Source of the DNA: Novosphingobium sp. EMRT-2
GTDB taxonomy: Bacteria; Pseudomonadota; Alphaproteobacteria; Sphingomonadales; Sphingomonadaceae
Length of the DNA stretch: 64,000 bases
Assembly: GCF_005145025.1 (NCBI RefSeq)
Contig: NZ_CP039695.1
Location: forward strand, 1,607,501-1,671,500
Direction: 5' to 3'
Part shown: positions 42,660-58,044 of the stretch, piece after piece
How the letters are laid out: the number at the start of each line of letters is the position of its first letter
How positions within the stretch are numbered: position 1 is the first letter of the stretch
Made by a program: the position numbers and the translations under genes
The notes under the pieces: model-generated
The model's input: the letters and a program-made list of their open reading frames with translations, nothing else
The model's database searches: none
What the model was told of the DNA's origin: nothing

Positions 42660-43199
42660 ATGTCAGCCAGATCAACGGGCGCGTCCCCGACGCGTGCCGC
42701 AAAACCGCGTGCGGGCGAAACGTCCACGCGACGGGGACCCGCGCCGCCGCGCTGGGTCAAACCGTTCCTGGCCGCATTGGCCGATACATCCAACGTCGCC
42801 GCCGCCGCGCGCAAGGCCAAGATCGACACCTCGGCCGCCTACCAGCGCCGCCGCAACGATGCCGAGTTCAACCGCCAGTGGCAGATCGCGCTGTGCGAGG
42901 GGTACGACAACCTGGAAATGGAACTGCTGCACCGGCTGCGCACCGGCGAAGTGAAGCCGCCCCCCGGCGCGAAACGGGCGGCGCGATCGTTCGACAACGC
43001 CACCGCGTTCCGTCTGCTGGCCGCCCACCGCGAAAGCGCGGCGCGCCAGCGCGCCGTCCGCGATCAGGTGAGCGCCGCCGACATCCGCGCCTCGATCGAC
43101 CGCAAAGTCGAGGAACTGCGCCAGCGCGTGATGGCGGCGAAGGCCGCGCGCGGGGCGGTGACAGCGGGGACAACGAAGGAAACCGGCAATGCCGGCTGA
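42660..43199 (+). CDS. GTA g1-position protein, probable small terminase
   Basis: The 179-residue protein has a basic N-terminus, then a helix-turn-helix-like part (FLAALADTSNVAAAARKAKI split, then DTSAAYQRRRNDAEF) as in small terminase subunits, and a charged C-terminal coiled coil. It is followed by the large terminase with an 11-bp overlap. In GTAs, packaging is headful and non-specific, so this protein would have lost site recognition. Confidence 0.75.
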   Translation: MSARSTGASPTRAAKPRAGETSTRRGPAPPRWVKPFLAALADTSNVAAAARKAKIDTSAAYQRRRNDAEFNRQWQIALCEGYDNLEMELLHRLRTGEVKPPPGAKRAARSFDNATAFRLLAAHRESAARQRAVRDQVSAADIRASIDRKVEELRQRVMAAKAARGAVTAGTTKETGNAG

Positions 43200-44517
43200 C
43201 CGGCTGGATTTCCTGCGCGACGACCAGGACGGCCTCGGCGCGGACATCGGCGAGGCCTTCGATCAAAGCGAAAGGGACGAATGGCACTGGAACTGGCCGC
43301 TGTGGGCGCGCACCGCGCAACTGCCGCCCGAGGGCGACTGGCGCGTCTGGCTGGTGATGGCCGGGCGCGGCTTCGGCAAGACCCGCGCCGGCGCGGAATG
43401 GGTGCGGACCATCGCCGAGGCCGATCACGAGGCCCGCATCGCGCTGGTGGGCGCTTCGTTGCACGAGGCGCGGGCGGTGATGGTCGAGGGCGAAAGCGGG
43501 GTGATGGCGGTGTGTCCGCCGCACCGCCGCCCGCGCTTCGAGCCATCGCTGCGGCGCGTGATCTGGCCCAACGGCGCGCAGGCGATGCTCTATTCGGCGG
43601 GCGAGCCGGAATCGCTGCGCGGACCGCAGCACAGCCACGCCTGGTGCGACGAAATCGCCAAATGGGATGACGGCCAAGCGCAGGCCCGGCGCAGCTGGGA
43701 CAACCTGCTGCTGGGCCTGCGGCTGGGCACCGCTCCGCGCATCGTAGCGACCACCACGCCGCGCGCGGTGCCGCTGGTGCGCCGCCTGCTGGAGCAGGCC
43801 GCCAGCGATGCCGACGTGACGGTGACGCGCGGCGGCACGCGGGAGAACATCGCGCATCTGCCCACGCGGTTCATCGCCGACGTCGAGCGCGAATTCGGCG
43901 GCACGCTGCTGGGCCGGCAGGAACTGGACGGCGAACTGATCGAGGACCTGCCCGGCGCGCTGTGGACGCGCGCGTTGCTGGAACGGTGCCGCGATGGCGC
44001 AGTGCCGCCGATGACCCGCGTGGTCGTGGGCGTCGATCCCCCGGCCAGCGCGCGGGGTGATGCCTGCGGGATCGTGGTCTGCGGACTGGGCGAAGACCGG
44101 ATCGCGCGCGTGCTGGCCGATGCCTCGATCGAGCAAGCCAGCCCCGAACGCTGGGCCGGCGCGGTGCGCGATGCCGCGCGGGCATGGGCGGCGGACCGGG
44201 TGGTGGCCGAAGCCAACCAGGGCGGCGAAATGGTGGGCGCGGTGCTGTGCGCGGCCAATGCCACCCTGCCGCTGCGGCTGGTCCATGCCAGCCGGGGCAA
44301 GGTGGCGCGCGCCGAGCCAGTCGCCGCGCTCTACGAATCCGGGCGCGTGCGCCATGCCGGTATGTTCGCCCGGCTGGAGGACGAACTGTGCGGGCTGATG
44401 CCGGGCGGTTCCTACCAGGGGCCCGGACGATCGCCCGACCGGGCGGACGCCTGCGTCTGGGCGCTGACCGAACTGATGCTGGGCCGCGCGGGCGAACCGC
44501 GCGTGTGGTTCGACTGA
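43189..44517 (+). CDS. GTA terminase large subunit (g2)
   Basis: The 442-residue DNA packaging motor has a Walker A motif AGRGFGKTRAG (K64), Walker B with CDEI (D154, E155), and an RNase-H-type nuclease aspartate D283 in VVVGVDPPAS, followed by an EANQGGE motif near residue 353. It packages host DNA into capsids. Both ATPase and nuclease sites look intact, supporting a working cluster. Adjacent portal begins 23 bp later. Confidence 0.95.
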   Translation: MPADRLDFLRDDQDGLGADIGEAFDQSERDEWHWNWPLWARTAQLPPEGDWRVWLVMAGRGFGKTRAGAEWVRTIAEADHEARIALVGASLHEARAVMVEGESGVMAVCPPHRRPRFEPSLRRVIWPNGAQAMLYSAGEPESLRGPQHSHAWCDEIAKWDDGQAQARRSWDNLLLGLRLGTAPRIVATTTPRAVPLVRRLLEQAASDADVTVTRGGTRENIAHLPTRFIADVEREFGGTLLGRQELDGELIEDLPGALWTRALLERCRDGAVPPMTRVVVGVDPPASARGDACGIVVCGLGEDRIARVLADASIEQASPERWAGAVRDAARAWAADRVVAEANQGGEMVGAVLCAANATLPLRLVHASRGKVARAEPVAALYESGRVRHAGMFARLEDELCGLMPGGSYQGPGRSPDRADACVWALTELMLGRAGEPRVWFD

Positions 44518-46512: not shown

Positions 46513-47667
46513 ATGGACATCGAAGCACCCGCCCCCATCGAAACCAAGAACGACGCCTTCGACGCCTCGTTCGACATCGTTGCCCGTCAGGACGCGCAGG
46601 ACGAGGCGCTGGCCGCGGTCCGTACCGACATCGAGGAGGTGAAAGGCCGGCTCGACAAGGTCGGCCGCGCCGCGATCCGCCCGCTGCTGGCCGGCGGATC
46701 GCCCACCGGCACGGAGATGAAGGGCTTCGTCGACGGCTATCTGCGCCATGGCCGCGAGAGCGAACTCAAATCGCTGTCGCAGGGCGTGGCGGCCGATGGC
46801 GGCTATGCCGTACCGCGCGAGATCGACGAGGTGCTGGCGAAGCGGCTGGCCGAAATCAGCCCGATTCGGTCGATCGCCTCGGTCGTCCGCACCGGCACCA
46901 GCGGGTTCCGCCGGCTGATCTCGATCGGCGGCACGGCATCGGGCTGGGTTTCCGAAACCGCCGCGCGGCCCGAGACCGCCAGCCCCAAACTGGCCGAGAT
47001 CGCGCCGCCGTGGGGCGAACTCTACGCCAACCCGTCCGCCACGCAGGCCATGCTCGATGACGCCGCGTTCGACGTGGCGGAGTGGCTGGCTGGCGAGATC
47101 GCCACCGAGTTCGCGCGGGCCGAGGGCGCGGCCTTCATCAACGGCAGCGGCACCAACCAGCCCAAGGGCTTCCTGACCGGCGCGACGAGCACCGCGGGCG
47201 ATGCCGCGCGGACCTTCGGCACGCTCCAGCACATCGGATCGGGCGCGGCGGCAGGGTTCGACACCAGCCCCGAAGCCAAGCTGATCGACATGGTCTTCGC
47301 GCTCAAGGCCCCGCTGCGGCAGGGTTCGGTCTGGGTGATGAATTCGACCACGATGGCCACGGTGCGCAAGTTCAAGAGCGCCGACGGCGCGTTCCTGTGG
47401 CAGCCGGGGATCGCCGAGGGCCAGCCCAACCGCCTGCTGGGCTACCCGGTGATCGAGGCGGAGGACATGCCCGACGTGGCCGCCGGCGCGCTGCCGATCG
47501 CCTTCGGCAACTTCCAGGCGGGCTACCTGATCGCCGAGCGCAACCAGACCACGATCCTGCGCGATCCCTACAGCAACAAGCCCTACGTCCAGTTCTACGC
47601 CACCAAGCGCGTGGGCGGGCAGCTGCTCGACAGCGACGCGATCAAGCTGCTGAAGATCACCACCTGA
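46513..47667 (+). CDS. GTA major capsid protein (g5, HK97 fold)
   Basis: The 384-residue protein has an N-terminal helical scaffold (residues about 1-60, coiled coil ending in RLDKVGRAA), then the HK97 capsid fold: SQGVAADGGYAVPREIDEVL near 91, an EGAAFINGSGTNQPKGFL block near 206, RLLGYPVIEAEDMPD near 307. The protease g4 would remove the N-terminal scaffold. Two hairpins bracket this gene. Confidence 0.96.
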   Translation: MDIEAPAPIETKNDAFDASFDIVARQDAQDEALAAVRTDIEEVKGRLDKVGRAAIRPLLAGGSPTGTEMKGFVDGYLRHGRESELKSLSQGVAADGGYAVPREIDEVLAKRLAEISPIRSIASVVRTGTSGFRRLISIGGTASGWVSETAARPETASPKLAEIAPPWGELYANPSATQAMLDDAAFDVAEWLAGEIATEFARAEGAAFINGSGTNQPKGFLTGATSTAGDAARTFGTLQHIGSGAAAGFDTSPEAKLIDMVFALKAPLRQGSVWVMNSTTMATVRKFKSADGAFLWQPGIAEGQPNRLLGYPVIEAEDMPDVAAGALPIAFGNFQAGYLIAERNQTTILRDPYSNKPYVQFYATKRVGGQLLDSDAIKLLKITT

Positions 47668-50443: not shown

Positions 50444-50469
50444 CCTCGCCCGCCACGGGAGCACGAGAC

Positions 50470-52836
50470 ATGAGCTTCTGGCTCGCCAAGCGCCGCACGG
50501 TGCAGCAGACGGACACCATCCAGCGGTTCGATCCGCGTTTCTGGACGGTCGATTTCCCGCGCCCGGCGATGGCCGCCGTGACCACGATCGCGCCTGACGG
50601 GCTGCGCGTGGACGCGGTGTTTCTCAAGGCCGATGACATGGTCGGCCTGATCTGGGAAAGCGAGGACCGGTGCGACCATCCGCTGCTGTCCTACGAAACC
50701 AGCCGCGACTACAGCCGGCTGACGCTGGCGTTCCGCTGGCGCTCTTCCGGCGTGATGCCGCTCGACGCGCTCGACGGCCCGACGCTGACGATCGAGGGGC
50801 GCGATGCCGCCGGAGCCCTGCACACCTGGTACGTGCGGCTGTGGAACTACGCCACGGGAACGCCGACCGACGCGCGGATCACCTTGCGCTTTTCCGATCT
50901 CGCCGGCGGATTCACGCTGCCCAGCGAAGCCGACGCGGTCCATCCGGCGGACATCGACCGCCTGTTCGTGTCGCTGGTGGCGCCGGGCTATGACGCGGGC
51001 AGCGAGACCCCGTTCGCCGCCGCCGCGAACGGCTGGGTGGAAATAACCGACATCCGCTGCCAGGGGCACAGGCCCATGCTGACGGTGGGCGACGTGATGA
51101 TCCCGCCGCACGGGTTGTCGATCGCGACCGGATACGACGATGCCTATAACCAGACCCCGGCGCGCGTGCTGCGCGCGGTGCGGGGCCTCGGCTATCGGGG
51201 CAGCATCAACCACTACCTGGGGATGAGCCATTTCCTCGCGCTGGTGGCCGACGGCGCGGGCGGGTTCGTGGTCGACCCCGATCTGCCGGCGTTGAACGCC
51301 GCCGCCGACGCCTGGCACCGGGATTTTCTGGCGCGGGCGAAAGCGGCCGGCCATGCCGTGATCCTCTCGCAATCCTACGAGGTGCTGGCGCAGCATTGCC
51401 CGGCAGACTGGCAGCAGCACGCCGACGACGGCACACCCGCGCGGACCGGATGGTCTCCCCCTTCGGCCCTGCTTTCCCCGGCCAGCGCCCCGGCGATGGC
51501 GTGGCTGCGCAAGGTGGCGGTGACGCTGGCCGGCCTGATGCGCGATGCCGGGCAACCGGTGCTGTATCAGGTGGGCGAGCCTTGGTGGTGGATCACGCCC
51601 GATCGCCGCATCTGCCTGTACGACGATGCGGCGCGCGCGGCTTTCGGCGGCGATCCGGTGGTCATTCCCGATCTGGCGGCGGCGCTTTCGCCCGCGCAGA
51701 CAGCGTTGCTCGACGCGGCCGGCGCGCTGCTGGCGCAATCGACGGCGGACCTGGCGGAAGCGGTGCGCGAGGCGGCCGGAAGCGCGGGCGCGACGATCCA
51801 TCTTCTCACGTTCCTGCCCACGGTGCTCGATCCCGCCATGCCGGAAGCGCGGCGCGCGAACCTGCCCATCGGCTGGGCATCGCCCGCGTTCGACGTGCTT
51901 CAGATCGAGGATTACGACTGGGTCACCGCCGGCGCGGAAGGGTTGCGGGCGCAGGGCCGCGCCACCGTGGAAGCGCGGCTGGGCTATGCGCGCGCAGCAC
52001 AGCATTACCTCGCAGGCTTCGTGCCCGATGCCGGCGGCGCGGAAAGCCAGTGGCCGCGCATCGATGCCGGCGCAAGCGAGACGCAGGCGCTGGGCGTGGC
52101 GCAATGCTTCGTCTGGGCCTTGCCACAAGTAAGCCGAGACGGCTTCACGCGGCTGCCCGATCCCGCCGCGCCGCTTCCCGAACCACACTCAGGCGAGGAA
52201 CCGACGATGCAGGCTTTCGACGACGTGCTGTTCCCACTGGCGCTGGGCCGCGACGCTACGGTGACGCCGGAATTCGCGACCAGCGTGACGATCACCGCAT
52301 CGGGCTTCGAGCGCCGCAACAGCCTGTGGTCCGATGCGCGGCTGCGCTTCGATGTCGGCCCCGGCGTCCGGTCCGAGGCGGAGCTGGGCACGCTGATCGG
52401 TTTCTTCCGCGCCCGGCGCGGGCAGGCGCGCGGCTTCCGATTGCGCGATCCGTCGGACCACAGCTCGTGCGGCATGACCGGTACGCCGACGCCGCTGGAC
52501 CAGTGGATCGGCACGGGCGACGGCCTGACCGCGCGCTTCGCGCTGGCGAAGCATTATGGCGAAGGCAGCGAGGCGCAGCGGCGGCGCGTGACCCGACCCC
52601 GCGCGGACAGCGTGACCGTAAGCATCGATGGCGTCACGGCAGGCGGGTGGTCGCTGGAGGACAAGGGCGTGATCCTGTTTGCCGAAGCGCCGGCCGCAGG
52701 CGCGGCGATCCGCGCGGGCTTCCTGTTCGATGTGCCCGTGCGCTTCGCGGAGGACCGGCTCGACATCTCCGGCGCAGCCTTTGCCGCCGGCGAAGCGCCG
52801 AGCGTACCGCTGATCGAACTGCGCGAGGACGCCTGA
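50470..52836 (+). CDS. GTA gp12 (DUF2460) fused to a large TIM-barrel-like N-terminal module
   Basis: The 788-residue protein consists of an unusual N-terminal module of 579 residues and a C-terminal DUF2460/gp12 unit of 209 residues (starts MQAFDDVLFPLALGRDATVT). Residues about 1-200 look like a beta-rich domain. Residues about 210-565 look like a TIM barrel with QVGEPWWWI (E370) and VLQIEDYDWV (E480, D481), placed like glycosidase acid residues. RcGTA gp12 is only the C-terminal part. ATG 50470 follows GGGAG. A GAGGAA-ATG inside (52195-52209) could start gp12 alone. Confidence 0.85.
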   Translation: MSFWLAKRRTVQQTDTIQRFDPRFWTVDFPRPAMAAVTTIAPDGLRVDAVFLKADDMVGLIWESEDRCDHPLLSYETSRDYSRLTLAFRWRSSGVMPLDALDGPTLTIEGRDAAGALHTWYVRLWNYATGTPTDARITLRFSDLAGGFTLPSEADAVHPADIDRLFVSLVAPGYDAGSETPFAAAANGWVEITDIRCQGHRPMLTVGDVMIPPHGLSIATGYDDAYNQTPARVLRAVRGLGYRGSINHYLGMSHFLALVADGAGGFVVDPDLPALNAAADAWHRDFLARAKAAGHAVILSQSYEVLAQHCPADWQQHADDGTPARTGWSPPSALLSPASAPAMAWLRKVAVTLAGLMRDAGQPVLYQVGEPWWWITPDRRICLYDDAARAAFGGDPVVIPDLAAALSPAQTALLDAAGALLAQSTADLAEAVREAAGSAGATIHLLTFLPTVLDPAMPEARRANLPIGWASPAFDVLQIEDYDWVTAGAEGLRAQGRATVEARLGYARAAQHYLAGFVPDAGGAESQWPRIDAGASETQALGVAQCFVWALPQVSRDGFTRLPDPAAPLPEPHSGEEPTMQAFDDVLFPLALGRDATVTPEFATSVTITASGFERRNSLWSDARLRFDVGPGVRSEAELGTLIGFFRARRGQARGFRLRDPSDHSSCGMTGTPTPLDQWIGTGDGLTARFALAKHYGEGSEAQRRRVTRPRADSVTVSIDGVTAGGWSLEDKGVILFAEAPAAGAAIRAGFLFDVPVRFAEDRLDISGAAFAAGEAPSVPLIELREDA
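52195..52209 (+). promoter_or_regulatory. Internal ribosome binding site and in-frame ATG for separate gp12
   Basis: GAGGAA at 52195-52200 lies 6 bp before an in-frame ATG at 52207. Translation from here would give exactly the 209-residue DUF2460 protein, the usual length of free gp12. Whether this site is used, or is a relic of a gene fusion, is unknown. Confidence 0.5.
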
Positions 52837-52837
52837 C

Positions 52838-53662
52838 ATGGCCGGGAGCACCCGCACCTGGTTCACCGGCCCACTGGAAACGGTGGCTACCTGGTGGCGC
52901 ATCGAACGCGCCGACGGCGTGACGCTGGGCTTCACCAGCCACGACCGCGATTTGGCGTTCGACGGCCTCACGTATCGCACCGCGCCCGGCATGGTGCCGT
53001 CCGCCATCCGCCGGACGGCGACATTCGAGGCGGACAGCGCGGAAATCACCGGCGCGCTGAGCCACGACGCCATCAGCGAGACCGATCTCGCCGCCGGGCG
53101 CTTCGACGGCGCGCGCATCGCCATGGGGCTGGTGGACTGGGAAACGCTGGAAACGACAACGCTGCACAGCGGAGCGATCGGCACGGTCGGACGGGAGAGC
53201 ACCGGCTTTTCCGCCGAACTGCTTTCGCTGAAGGACCAGCTAAGCCGCGATGTGGTGCCCCGAACCGCACCGACCTGTCGTGCCGCGTTCTGCGGGGAAG
53301 GCTGCACGCTTTCCGGCACGCGGTTCGAGCACGACGCCACGCTGATGGATATAACGGAAGCCGGGGACGCGATTCGCATCGCCTGTGCCGTTCCCGCAAA
53401 TGCCCTGCTGTTCGGCCGCGTGCGCTGGATCGACGGACCGAGCGCGGGCCTGACGCGGCACGTCATCGGAGTCGATGGCGACTGGATCGCGCTGGACCAA
53501 CCGGTCTTCGCCACCATTTCCGACGGCGGACGCCTGCTGGTGCGCGAAGGGTGCGATCACACGCTGCAGACCTGCGCGGACCGCTTCGGCAACGCGGTGA
53601 ACTTCCAGGGCGAGCCGTTCCTGCCGGGCAACGATCTGCTGACCCGCTATCCCCCGGCATGA
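52838..53662 (+). CDS. GTA gp13 (DUF2163), tail hub with cysteine cluster
   Basis: The 274-residue protein has SRDVVPRTAPTCRAAFCGEG (C147, C152, then C156) and a late REGCDHTLQTCADRFGN (C239, C246), followed by FQGEPFLPGNDL. These cysteines match the Fe-S ligand pattern in lambda gpL-type hubs and RcGTA gp13. It begins 1 bp after g12 ends and overlaps g14 by ATGA. Confidence 0.92.
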   Translation: MAGSTRTWFTGPLETVATWWRIERADGVTLGFTSHDRDLAFDGLTYRTAPGMVPSAIRRTATFEADSAEITGALSHDAISETDLAAGRFDGARIAMGLVDWETLETTTLHSGAIGTVGRESTGFSAELLSLKDQLSRDVVPRTAPTCRAAFCGEGCTLSGTRFEHDATLMDITEAGDAIRIACAVPANALLFGRVRWIDGPSAGLTRHVIGVDGDWIALDQPVFATISDGGRLLVREGCDHTLQTCADRFGNAVNFQGEPFLPGNDLLTRYPPA

Positions 53663-54054
53663 ACGCCGATCTGGCCGCCGCCGCGCTGAACCTGATCGGC
53701 ACGCCGTTCCGGCTGCACGGCCGCGATCCGGCGACGGGGCTGGATTGCGTGGGGCTGGTCGCCGAGGCCATGCGCCGCGCCGGATTTCATCCGGTTCCGC
53801 CCGGCGGATACGGCCTGCGCGCCTTGTCCGTCGACGCGCTGGTTCCCCATGCGGGGGCCAGCGGCCTCGTGCCCGTGCCGCGCGACGGCGACGTAGTGCT
53901 GGCGCGCGTCAGCCCGGTGCAGGCGCACCTGCTGATCGCCGCGCCGGACGGCTTCGTCCACGCCCACGCCGGCCTTCGCCGCGTGACCTTCCTGCCCGGC
54001 CCCCTTCCCTGGCCGGTGCCGCTCGCATGGCGCATCCCGTCCGAAAGGCCCTGA
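53659..54054 (+). CDS. GTA gp14, NlpC/P60 cell-wall peptidase
   Basis: The 131-residue peptidase has catalytic C30 in GLDCVGLVAE and histidine H90 in VQAHLLIAA. In RcGTA gp14 locally digests peptidoglycan so DNA can enter the recipient. Start ATG 53659 overlaps g13. Confidence 0.92.
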   Translation: MNADLAAAALNLIGTPFRLHGRDPATGLDCVGLVAEAMRRAGFHPVPPGGYGLRALSVDALVPHAGASGLVPVPRDGDVVLARVSPVQAHLLIAAPDGFVHAHAGLRRVTFLPGPLPWPVPLAWRIPSERP

Positions 54055-54060
54055 ACGATC

Positions 54061-56268
54061 ATGGCAACGCTACTTCTGACCGCTGCCGGCACCGCGATCG
54101 GCGGGCCGCTGGGCGGCGCAATCGGTGCCCTCGCCGGACGCCAGATCGACGCGGCGATCATTGGCACCCGCCAGATCGAAGGCCCGCGCCTGAAGGACCT
54201 TGCCGTCCAGACATCGAGCTATGGCTCCGCGCTGCCGCTGCACTTCGGCACGATGCGCGCCGCCGGGAGCGTGATCTGGGCGACCGACCTGCAGGAACAT
54301 GCGACGCGCGAGGGCAGCAAGGGACGCCCCACGGCAACGCGCTATAGCTATACCGCGTCGTTCGCGGTGGCGCTCGCCAGCCGCCCGGTCAGCGGGATCG
54401 GCCGCGTGTGGGCGGACGGCAACCTGCTGCGCGGGGCGGCGGGCGACCTCAAGGTGGGCGGGGCCATGCGCGTCCACACCGGATACGGCGACCAGCCGGT
54501 CGATCCGCTGATCGCGCAGGCCGAAGGGATCGACCGCTGCCCTGCGTTTCGCAACACCGCCTACGTGGTGTTCGAGGATCTGGAACTCGCCGATTTTGGC
54601 AACCGCATTCCATCGCTCACGTTCGAGGTCATCGCCGACAGCGAGGGCTGCACCATGGCGCGGATCATCACCGCGCTACTGCCCGAGACTCTCAGCGCGG
54701 CCATCGACACGGCATTGTCCGGCTTCAGCGTGGATCAGGGAACGTGCGGCGATATCCTTGCCACCCTGTCCGATGCGATTCCCCTCGCCTGCGTGGTGCA
54801 TGACGGCGTGCTGGACATCCGGCTGGCAGAAACGGTCGGCGATACCCCCGCCCCCCTCCTGCCCCAACCGGCGGCGACAGGCGACGGCAACCCGGACGAC
54901 ACGAAGGGCGACGGATGGACTCATCGGCGCGAACCTCTGCCGACGGTGCGCCAGTGCGGCGTGCGCTATTACGACCCCGCGCGCGACTACCAGCCGGGGC
55001 TGCAACGCGGCATCGGACGCAGCGAGGCGGGCACGCTGGCGGTGATCGAACTCCCTGCGGCGATCGACGCCGCGCAGGCCCGCTGGCTGGCGGAAGCGGC
55101 CAGCCAGCGGGCGAGCCGCCCGCGCGACACCATGCGCTATCGCGTGACCGAGATCGGCCCCGCGACCGCCCCCGGCGCGATCGTCCGCGTGCCGGTTGCA
55201 ACCGGCCTGTGGCGGATCGAACAATGGGAATGGCAGCAGGACGGGGTGATGCTCGATCTGGTCGCGCTGCGCATGGGCGCGGGAACGGGCGGCGGCGCAA
55301 CGACCGCCGATCCCGGCCGCTGCCTGGGCGCGATCGACCTGCCTGCCCCGCCTACCCGGCTGGTGGCGTTCGAACTGCCCTGGGACGGCATCGGCGATGG
55401 GAACACGCCCGCGCTGTTCGCCGGGGTGTCTGGTGCGAGCGCCGGCTGGCGCGGCGCGGCGTTGTTCGCAACCACGGTGGCCGGGGACGCCATGCGCCCA
55501 CTGGGCGGCAGCGGCCAGCAGCGCGCCATCGTCGGAAAGTGCGAGTCGGCTTTGTCAGCGGCCTCGCCGCTGCTGGTGGACAGAAGCTCGACCGTGGATG
55601 TCCGCCTGGCCGCCGCCGATCTTGTCCTGGCCGATGCAACGCTGGCAAGTCTGCTCGACGGCGCCAACCGCGCGCTGATCGGCGCCGAAGTCATCCAGTT
55701 CATGCGCGCGGAGCCGCTTGGCGACGGGCTGTGGCGCCTGTCGGGCCTGCTGCGCGGACGCGGCGGCAGCGAAGGAGCGATTGGCCAGCACGCGGCCGGA
55801 GAGGACTTCGTCCTGCTCGACGACCGCATCACCACGCTTGACCCAAGGATCGTCGGCGAGGCGGCCAGCGCACGCATCGCAGCGATCGGACCGGGCGACG
55901 CGGCGGCCGTCAGCACGCCAATCGCGGGCGCCGGAACGACCTGCCGCCCGCTTGCGCCGGTTCACGGCGCGGTGCGGCAAAGCGAAACGGGCGGCATCTC
56001 CCTGACATGGGTGAGGCGCGCGAGAGGCGCGTGGGTCTGGGCCGACGGGGTCGACGTACCGCTGAACGAGGACGTGGAACGTTGGACGATAGGTTATGGC
56101 GACGCCGTAACGCCGGCTGTGGGATGGGAAACGGACGTTGCCCGGCTCGATCTCTCGCCCGCGCAGACCGAGTCACTGCTCAGCCTGGACGCGCCGCCCC
56201 AGTTTCACATCCGCCAGAGCGGACGCGCCGCGCTCTCCCGGCCGCTCACCATTTTCCTGCCGGACTGA
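54061..56268 (+). CDS. GTA gp15-type tail-tip / host-contact protein, short form
   Basis: The 735-residue protein begins with a hydrophobic glycine-rich segment (TAAGTAIGGPLGGAIGALAG), then SYGSALPLHFGTMRAAGSVI and IPSLTFEVIAD, a pattern of putative phage tail protein (Phage-tail_3). RcGTA gp15 is about 1300 residues and contains a TIM-barrel (GTA_TIM) region that I do not find here. The missing module may be related to the one fused to g12. It is 6 bp after g14. Confidence 0.88.
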   Translation: MATLLLTAAGTAIGGPLGGAIGALAGRQIDAAIIGTRQIEGPRLKDLAVQTSSYGSALPLHFGTMRAAGSVIWATDLQEHATREGSKGRPTATRYSYTASFAVALASRPVSGIGRVWADGNLLRGAAGDLKVGGAMRVHTGYGDQPVDPLIAQAEGIDRCPAFRNTAYVVFEDLELADFGNRIPSLTFEVIADSEGCTMARIITALLPETLSAAIDTALSGFSVDQGTCGDILATLSDAIPLACVVHDGVLDIRLAETVGDTPAPLLPQPAATGDGNPDDTKGDGWTHRREPLPTVRQCGVRYYDPARDYQPGLQRGIGRSEAGTLAVIELPAAIDAAQARWLAEAASQRASRPRDTMRYRVTEIGPATAPGAIVRVPVATGLWRIEQWEWQQDGVMLDLVALRMGAGTGGGATTADPGRCLGAIDLPAPPTRLVAFELPWDGIGDGNTPALFAGVSGASAGWRGAALFATTVAGDAMRPLGGSGQQRAIVGKCESALSAASPLLVDRSSTVDVRLAAADLVLADATLASLLDGANRALIGAEVIQFMRAEPLGDGLWRLSGLLRGRGGSEGAIGQHAAGEDFVLLDDRITTLDPRIVGEAASARIAAIGPGDAAAVSTPIAGAGTTCRPLAPVHGAVRQSETGGISLTWVRRARGAWVWADGVDVPLNEDVERWTIGYGDAVTPAVGWETDVARLDLSPAQTESLLSLDAPPQFHIRQSGRAALSRPLTIFLPD

Positions 56269-56299
56269 ACGCCAGTTCCTCCCCGATCGGAGCACGACC

Positions 56300-56752
56300 A
56301 TGACCGACCCGACAAGTTTCGCCTCCACAACGGCTCGATTCAACCTGCCGCTGCTCCATGCGGGGCAGTCACAGAAGGAAGTGACGGTCAACGAAAGCCT
56401 GCTCCTGCTCGACTCGCTGGCGCACACGGCGGTGGAGGGGGAAACCGCCACGCCGCCGGAAACGCCGGAAAACGGGCAAGCCTGGCTGGTAGCGGCGGAC
56501 GGCACGGACGCTTTCAGCGGGCATGACCAGGCCCTTGCCGTGTGGGGTGAAGGGGGATGGCGCTTTCTTCCCCCGCGCGAAGGCATGCGAGTGTTCGATC
56601 GCGAACGGCAATGCTTCCGCCTGTTTGCGGAAGAGTGGCGCGGTATCGAGGCGCCGGTGCTGCCCACGGGCGGCAGCACGATCGACGTGGAAGCGCGCGC
56701 ATTTCTCGCCGATCTGGTTCAAAGTTTGCGGAATTGCGGTTTGCTCCCCTGA
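56300..56752 (+). CDS. DUF2793 protein at the end of the GTA cluster
   Basis: The 150-residue protein has ARFNLPLLHAGQSQKEVTVN near residue 12 and PENGQAWLVAADGTDAFSGH near 56, which define DUF2793, often found behind GTA tail genes in alphaproteobacteria. A role in fibre or receptor binding is possible but unproven. Confidence 0.87.
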   Translation: MTDPTSFASTTARFNLPLLHAGQSQKEVTVNESLLLLDSLAHTAVEGETATPPETPENGQAWLVAADGTDAFSGHDQALAVWGEGGWRFLPPREGMRVFDRERQCFRLFAEEWRGIEAPVLPTGGSTIDVEARAFLADLVQSLRNCGLLP

Positions 56753-56801: not shown

Positions 56802-56949
56802 TATTTCTGCCGCGGTTTACGAAGAGGCGCAGCGCAACAGCGTTGTATTTTCGCAACACCTGGCAAGCGTGCCCGCTTGCATGAGCACTTGAGAACCGGT
56901 AGACAACCGCCACGACGTGGCAAGATTATTGCAAAAAGGGGAATCAATA

Positions 56950-58044
56950 ATGCGGAAACTGGTCCTAGGCCTGGCCATGGCGTCGAGCGCCCTGGCCACG
57001 CCAGCTCTCGCCCGGGATAAGTCCTGGTACGTCGAGGGTGACGCGGGTGCCATGATTGTGGAAGACATCTACAATTTCACCGGCAAGAACAACGACGGCA
57101 CGCTGGACACCAAGGCCGGCTACGACTTCGGCGGCATCGTCGGCTACGATTTCGGCCCCTTCCGCCTGGAAGCAGAAGCCAGCTATCGTCGCGCCGAAGA
57201 AAAGGCCTATCGCAGCTCGACCCAGAACTACACCGACTCCCAGCTCGGTGGTGGCGCCAGCGCGCTGAGCTTCATGGCCAACGGCCTGCTCGACTTCGGT
57301 CCCGATGACGGCCTGCAGGGCTTCGTTGGCGGCGGCGTCGGCGTCGGCCGCGTCAAGAACGCAGTGATCACGCCCGTCACTGGCCCGACCTCGGTCAACG
57401 TCGTGGATTCGGACACCGGCTTCGCCTGGCAGGCTCTCGCGGGCATCCGCGCGCCGATCAGCAAGCACGTCGACCTCGGTCTGAAGTATCGCTTCTACAA
57501 CCAGGACCACAACGATCTGGTGAACAACGCTGGCACGAACGTGCGCACGCGCTTCCGTTCGCACTCGCTGATGGCGACGCTGGCCTACAACTTCGGTGGC
57601 GCCGAACCGGTCGCTCCGCCGCCGCCCCCGCCGCCGCCGCCCCCGCCGCCGCCCCCTCCGCCGCCGCCCCCGCCGCCTCCGCCGGTGGCCGTGTGCAACA
57701 AGGGTCCGTACATCGTGTTCTTCGACTGGGATAAGTCGGACATCACGCCGGAAGCAGCGACCATCCTCGACAACGCGATCACCGCGTATGGCAACTGCAA
57801 CAGCGTGCCGATCATGCTGGCCGGTTACACCGACCGTTCGGGCACGCCGAAGTACAACCTCGGCCTCTCGGCCCGTCGTAACACCTCGGTCCGTGCGTAC
57901 CTCACCTCGCACGGTATCCCGGATGGTTCGATCACCAGTCAGGCCTTCGGTGAGGCCAACCCGCGCGTTCCGACCGCGGACGGCGTCCGCGAACTCCAGA
58001 ACCGTCGCGTGGAAATCACCTACGGTCCGGGTTCGGGCATGTAA
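56950..58044 (+). CDS. OmpA-family outer membrane protein with 23-proline linker
   Basis: The 364-residue protein has a signal peptide (cleavage after ALA near residue 22), an eight-strand OmpA-like beta-barrel (about 25-217), a run of 23 prolines (residues 223-245), and a C-terminal OmpA domain that binds peptidoglycan (FFDWDKSDITPEA near 258, ending NRRVEITYG). It fixes the outer membrane to the wall. AAGGGGAA lies before ATG 56950. Proline run needs EF-P. Confidence 0.94.
   Translation: MRKLVLGLAMASSALATPALARDKSWYVEGDAGAMIVEDIYNFTGKNNDGTLDTKAGYDFGGIVGYDFGPFRLEAEASYRRAEEKAYRSSTQNYTDSQLGGGASALSFMANGLLDFGPDDGLQGFVGGGVGVGRVKNAVITPVTGPTSVNVVDSDTGFAWQALAGIRAPISKHVDLGLKYRFYNQDHNDLVNNAGTNVRTRFRSHSLMATLAYNFGGAEPVAPPPPPPPPPPPPPPPPPPPPPPPVAVCNKGPYIVFFDWDKSDITPEAATILDNAITAYGNCNSVPIMLAGYTDRSGTPKYNLGLSARRNTSVRAYLTSHGIPDGSITSQAFGEANPRVPTADGVRELQNRRVEITYGPGSGM

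Follow-up and report, generated by a model that had tools for sequence, protein, structure and literature searches.

The element described here is the tail-tip region of a gene transfer agent (GTA) of the Sphingomonadales, located at positions 50,470 to 56,268 of a 64,000-nucleotide stretch of the Novosphingobium sp. EMRT-2 genome (contig NZ_CP039695.1), hereafter the window. In its gp12 gene, a phage-type, glycosidase-like module precedes the distal tail protein (Dit) as an in-frame fusion, and an in-frame start codon preceded by a Shine-Dalgarno (SD) sequence is conserved inside the fusion at the beginning of the Dit part. We consider it likely that gp12 is a two-product fusion gene, whose armed and bare Dit proteins would share one tail ring and whose barrel would face the sugars of the recipient.

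gp12 combines a module of a tail sheath family with Dit

The open frame of gp12 covers 50440/50470-52836 and encodes 788 aa from the ATG at 50470. Three Pfam families are matched in the order NCTSP_N, TIM-barrel_NCTSP and DUF2460, each across its full profile. NCTSP_N (PF23844) scores 322.6 bits over model positions 1-191/191 and TIM-barrel_NCTSP (PF23845) 539.9 bits over 1-348/348, relative to a curated cut-off of 27; since two curated families are matched at E values of 7e-97 and 3e-162, respectively, the module is not a chance resemblance. The Dit part exceeds its cut-offs as well, with 253.9 bits for DUF2460 (cut-off 30.4) and 197.4 bits for TIGR02217 (cut-off 136.65), and both profiles start within a few residues of M580. 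A preliminary description of this DNA had proposed an extra N-terminal module of 579 residues folding as a TIM barrel. Indeed, residues 1-579 precede M580, the first residue of the Dit part, and the full-length PF23845 match and the predicted barrel strands bear out the fold. Among named relatives, those closest to the module in gp12 belong to Novosphingobium, at 93% and 91% identity. A PADLOC search gave no result for gp12.

It is the Dit part (window 52180-52827), not the barrel, that is matched by PHROG 2913, a family bearing the name glycoside hydrolase. In the available text on R4C, the Dit of that element is called associated with glycoside hydrolases (PMC10276861), a remark that may stem from fusions like gp12.

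A start codon with a Shine-Dalgarno sequence is conserved inside the fusion

Nothing in the case is more surprising than the conserved internal start. A Dit match was found in 197 of 201 loci searched. Twelve were dropped for having no long open frame before Dit, namely seven loci with the GTA_TIM barrel (PF13547) on gp15 (GTA_TIM-type), three with the module fused to gp13 (gp13-type) and two broken fusions (L096, L148). Of the remaining 185 loci, 80 come from named genomes, 76 are viral contigs, 28 are from genomes of the order sample and one is the window; in a few of them (L069, L091, L092) the module is disrupted or truncated. Dit residue 1 is encoded by ATG in 144 of these, by GTG in 36, by TTG in three, by AAG in one (L237) and by CCT in one (L073, with an ATG directly after). 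An SD core is present at −20 to −5 from the Dit start in 180/185 loci, compared with 791 of 8254 other in-frame ATG, GTG or TTG codons and 164 of 2406 when ATG alone is considered.

Codon choice follows the same pattern. Valine at Dit residue 1 is GTG in 36/36 cases (in the genes as a whole, 49% of valines use GTG), and leucine is encoded by TTG only. Within the SD window, glycine is GGA in 45/72 cases (background 9.6%) and glutamate GAG in 165/212 (background 53%). On a FastTree tree of 184 loci, a minimum of 24 changes at Dit residue 1 (including the two non-start rows) and of 19 switches in the reading frame of the SD were counted. Clustering at 60% identity leaves 20 loci, with the start present in 19 and the SD in 18. 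The statistics on the 185 loci assume independence despite their kinship, which the tree counts and the clustered set answer in part. The codon counts, the clustering and the frame switches therefore indicate that the nucleotide signal is conserved more than the linker peptide. Such a conserved in-frame SD and start is the arrangement of two-polypeptide single genes and, judged from the sequence, a bare ring protein is probably made besides the fusion.

Proposed mechanism

We propose that a module of the N4 sheath gp64/gp65 family, consisting of an N-terminal beta-rich domain and a TIM barrel, was joined to the 5' end of the Dit gene, and that the ribosome-binding site and start codon native to gp12 persisted inside the fusion. 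One gene would then yield a module-Dit protein, placing a sugar-binding or sugar-cutting barrel round the tail end, and a bare Dit, and the ratio of armed to bare subunits would depend on the two start sites. The N-terminus of an armed subunit would not be free and that of a bare subunit could be, some subunits holding the baseplate and others carrying the barrel. The barrel would meet the surface or capsule polysaccharide of the recipient, the role presumed for the unrelated GTA_TIM barrel on RcGTA gp15.

According to the accessible text on RcGTA, six Dit subunits form a ring, their N-termini contact the hub and the megatron, and alternate subunits differ, matching the three-fold baseplate (PMC7296036). 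As six subunits form that ring, a mixed ring would be the simplest reading. More tentatively, and with odds that we place somewhat below even, the ratio may be fixed, for example at 3+3, leading from a C6 tail to a C3 baseplate with hub and megatron touching the free Dit N-terminus, and tail tips of this family may in the course of evolution swap unrelated glycosidase-like barrels among gp12, gp13 and gp15. The available part of a preprint describes TspA as a biofilm-degrading tailspike at the RcGTA tail and reports none found outside Rhodobacterales (PMC13420450); a built-in barrel may take its place.

Several observations weigh against the two-product explanation. Five of the 185 loci lack an SD under the definition used, and L237, the one clear loss of the start (AAG), keeps its SD, so that the internal start is not strictly necessary. 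In the stretch immediately 5' of the SD window, GGA is also raised for glycine (53/198), for no evident reason. The module is broken or shortened in genomes G010, G031, G064 and G039 and in locus L069 (G110), and so appears dispensable in some genomes. In the GH42/GH14-like enzymes that the gp12 barrel resembles, the catalytic acids are on strands 4 and 7. Those of the gp12 barrel are on strands 4 and 6, which makes catalysis uncertain.

Separately, L096, L092, L091 and G064:C52 have a whole Dit part behind a module that is interrupted by a stop or by frame changes, or that has lost length through an in-frame gap; L092 and L091 retain the internal SD and a GTG.

The arrangement is of interest as a sequence-encoded, testable route to mixing subunits in one tail ring, and as a natural case of a TIM barrel that differs both in its family and in its position. 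Unrelated enzyme folds, it suggests, can replace one another in the sugar-facing part of GTA tails, a point relevant to the range of cells that a GTA can enter.

Distribution and origin of the arrangements

The preliminary description also held that gp15 is short, at 735 residues, and this is confirmed. At E ≤ 1, gp15 matches only Phage-tail_3 and Rcc01698_C in Pfam. GTA_TIM is matched in neither gp12 nor gp15 at E ≤ 1, nor anywhere in the 4.77-Mb genome at E ≤ 0.001. In comparison with the Protein Data Bank, gp15 residues 1-198 correspond to RcGTA megatron 1-209 and residues 318-678 to megatron 885-1247, most of megatron 209-885 having no counterpart. The peripheral domain is given as residues 230-744 in the available text of Bardy 2020 (PMC7296036). 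Since the alignment skips megatron ∼209-885, the missing stretch includes this domain. Consistently, the megatron equivalog NF048004 is matched at 365.7 bits in two stretches, under its 800-bit cut-off, with the peripheral part missing. The survey of lengths, measured stop to stop, gave gp15 frames of 1206-1931 aa in 22/22 GTA_TIM-type loci (20 genomes and 2 phages), 726-949 aa in 27/27 fused-gp12 loci and 754-888 aa in 9/10 gp13-type loci, the tenth ending at a contig edge. For the RcGTA-type GTA_TIM peripheral domain itself (L272:3371-4972), the nearest folds are those of GH113 beta-mannanases, at 18-23% identity, which offers a lead to its function.

Among the 118 genomes of the order sample, the NCTSP barrel is found in 56, DUF2460 in 59, including all of these 56, and GTA_TIM in none. 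The 241 genomes of the class sample comprise four with NCTSP and 28 with GTA_TIM, without overlap. Outside fused genes, DUF2460 occurs in four copies in three order genomes (G057, G020 twice, G033). The 19-kb stretches round these copies contain no terminase, portal, capsid or major tail protein match and one gp6 match (at G033), for which reason they look like prophages. In three of the four (L384-L386) the gp13 frames (∼540-590 aa) and gp15 frames (∼1170-1180 aa) are longer, and in the two that were scanned, L384 and L385, the extra parts matched no Pfam family; they sit where other lineages carry barrels.

A module-gp13 fusion with a separate Dit is present as a second locus in two order genomes (G013, G024) and as one locus in G248, a genome from a different order. 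Scanning viral contigs yielded nine gp13-type loci, of which L353 repeats the G013 locus and L358 and L359 look alike. The fusion is seen in 9/9, a separate Dit in 8/9 (L357 begins within the module) and, just before Dit, a frame of 587-891 aa taken as tape measure in 7/9, the other two lacking sequence there. In a barrel tree of 43 rows (L360 omitted for its long branch), one branch (96/94) sets the gp12-fused barrels apart and another (97/87) the gp13-fused barrels, and on these rows one shared acquisition of the module for both lineages could not be rejected (p-AU 0.121).

There is close to an even chance that no swap took place, the ancestral gp15 having been short and GTA_TIM having been gained on gp15, and the phage module on gp12, in separate lineages. 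The phage-like loci that combine the same tail tip with a short gp15 and a module on gp13 fit such a history, as does the gp15 tree, where a branch (96) separates off the fused lineage and the gp13-type rows lie among GTA_TIM-type rows. However, this tree is unrooted, and a loss from gp15 explains the pattern equally well.

Contigs filed as viral in IMG/VR (L102-L181) carry the module at 56-75% identity to that of the window, so that many may be GTA clusters; among the IMG/VR pattern matches listed, at least 585 of 600 encode a relative. Matches to gp12 and gp15 also occur in MT840053, a faecal 'Bacteriophage sp.' record of 5.4 kb.

Fold and putative function of the barrel

E370 and E480/D481, singled out in the preliminary description, are located at these positions, and E304 was located as well. 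In the predicted structure and the alignments, E370 after beta-4 and E480 after beta-6 are both invariant and form a glycoside-hydrolase-type acid pair at strand C-ends. The nearest solved structure to the barrel model is N4 gp64, followed by glycosidases. By its modelled fold the barrel is glycosidase-like, with a putative enzymatic activity and sugar target.

A non-catalytic collar of structural or lectin-like kind, such as the sheath subunit may form in N4, is a serious competitor, with odds somewhat below even. The accessible text presents N4 gp64 as a sheath subunit (PMC12633501), and acids at strands 4 and 6 agree with such a role. On the other hand, the invariance of the acids extends over very distant phages, and glycosidases are the next fold neighbours.

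It is improbable that the fusion protein alone is made, the internal SD and start being mere relics or the outcome of a protein-level constraint on the linker. In favour of this reading, E/D-E-D-x-M is a frequent linker sequence, and when the seven codons ahead of the start are resampled synonymously, an SD arises in 57% without further cause. Yet such a constraint does not account for valine encoded solely by GTG and leucine solely by TTG, for the frame switches of the SD, for the use of rare GGA in its window or for the start and SD kept among clustered loci. Moreover, in 10 gp13-type fusions the gp13 start showed no SD-bearing start codon, SD-preceded start codons lying 9 to 18 codons upstream, within the barrel end, in 3/10 (L354, L355, L360).

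The preliminary description had the module relocated from gp15 or replaced. Replacement by an unrelated barrel is supported, whereas a move of the gp15 barrel to gp12 is very improbable, being rejected by profile (hhalign of GTA_TIM with the NCTSP barrel, 1.7%) and by fold comparison with a GTA_TIM model of middling confidence (pLDDT, the predicted local distance difference test, of 79.3). N4 gp64 is absent from the rows listed for that model, which excludes nothing by itself.

Locus and neighbouring genes

The terminase, portal, protease, capsid and major tail protein of the window, named from position and look, tie the cluster to RcGTA-type clusters. In the 20 GTA_TIM-type genome loci (L362-L381), the window capsid is matched in 18 (28-50% identity), the portal in 17 (40-51%) and the terminase in 13 (45-55%); the Dit part of gp12, gp13 and gp15 are matched in all 20, and L368 and L379 match none of the three head proteins. 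As these three are matched in most of the loci, the element is of RcGTA type. The head-tail cluster is homologous to RcGTA-type clusters, its assignment to the transfer agents coming from its genes.

Directly after gp15 lies a DUF2793 gene (56138-56752), a relative of which also follows gp15 in the gp13-type loci L075, L078 and L081. A frame at 56917-58044, adjoining the cluster, resembles an OmpA-like protein by eye and has a long proline run.

Table 1. Features of the tail-tip region and selected head genes (window coordinates).
Feature	Position	Strand	Remarks
gp2, large terminase	43189..44517	+	Named by position and look, no profile search
Capsid	46513-47667		Named by position and look, no profile search
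gp11, tape measure, 192 aa	49865..50443	+	Weak RcGTA_tape match, 22.5 bits (cut-off 220)
GGGAG, SD-like	50457..50461	+	Ahead of first start (50470)
gp12, fusion of NCTSP module and Dit, 788 aa	50470..52836	+	
NCTSP_N domain (PF23844; non-contractile tail sheath N-terminal)	50518..51090	+	E 7.4e-97; mostly strands in model
TIM-barrel_NCTSP domain (PF23845)	51103..52146	+	Pfam
E304 codon	51379..51381	+	Invariant acid just past strand beta-3
E370 codon (GEPWWW)	51577..51579	+	Invariant acid at C-end of strand beta-4
E480 codon (QIEDYD)	51907..51909	+	Invariant acid at C-end of strand beta-6
Variable linker with internal ribosome-binding site	52147..52206	+	Low pLDDT at 570-578
GAGGA, internal SD	52195..52199	+	7 bases ahead of internal ATG
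Internal in-frame ATG (codon 580), predicted free Dit, 209 aa	52207..52836	+	
DUF2460 / TIGR02217 Dit domain	52219..52824	+	Profiles; RcGTA 6tba_6B, E 6.8e-40
gp13, hub, 274 aa, without module	52838..53662	+	Profile searches
gp14, NlpC/P60-like peptidase, 130 aa	53662..54054	+	Weak match, under curated cut-offs
gp15, short megatron, 735 aa, without peripheral TIM domain	54061..56268	+	Profile and PDB comparison

Comparison with known systems

The gp12 fusion is not mentioned in the portions of the GTA literature consulted, among them Kogay 2022, where g7 is given as a further protein that was replaced in GTAs of the Sphingomonadales and g12-g15 as low in copy number (PMC9765227). Among open-licence PMC papers, none was found combining 'non-contractile tail sheath' with 'TIM barrel', on GTA with Sphingomonadales and glycoside hydrolase, on GTA gp12 and gp15 in sphingomonads, or on internal translation with phage and distal tail.

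RcGTA, with gp12 (Rcc01695) and gp15, shares the gene cluster, Dit, hub and megatron core with the window. In contrast, its Dit is bare (210 aa) and its barrel, a trimer, belongs to another family and is carried on gp15. The phage-like module-gp13 loci (L353-L361, L075, L078, L081) have the same module, the same tail-tip genes and, where complete, a short gp15, but they carry the module on the hub gene, keep a separate Dit gene and lack an SD-bearing start at the gp13 start.

N4 is a short-tailed phage. Its gp64:gp65 sheath (PDB 9lc0, 9yf4) belongs to the same two Pfam families, and gp64 is the closest solved structure to the gp12 module; unlike in gp12, the module in N4 is split over two chains and has no Dit fusion. 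In N4 (L352:8758-14192), gp65 has NCTSP_N positions 2-75 and TIM profile positions 4-46, and gp64 TIM profile positions 60-347. With the profile divided in this way, the barrel is probably completed across both chains. Phi92 is a contractile phage. Its gp142, a 719-aa protein in a baseplate/tail-fibre cluster, contains both Pfam domains but likewise no Dit fusion. According to the accessible text, the N4 module family forms a six-fold sheath around the tail (PMC12633501).

For the internal start, the closest parallels are two-polypeptide endolysins, which are lysis enzymes and not, as here, tail structure; CTP1L is reportedly one of them. In the available account of such genes, an in-frame internal start yields a short form besides the full-length protein, and the two assemble into hetero-oligomers, in one case at a ratio of 1:5 (PMC9430671).
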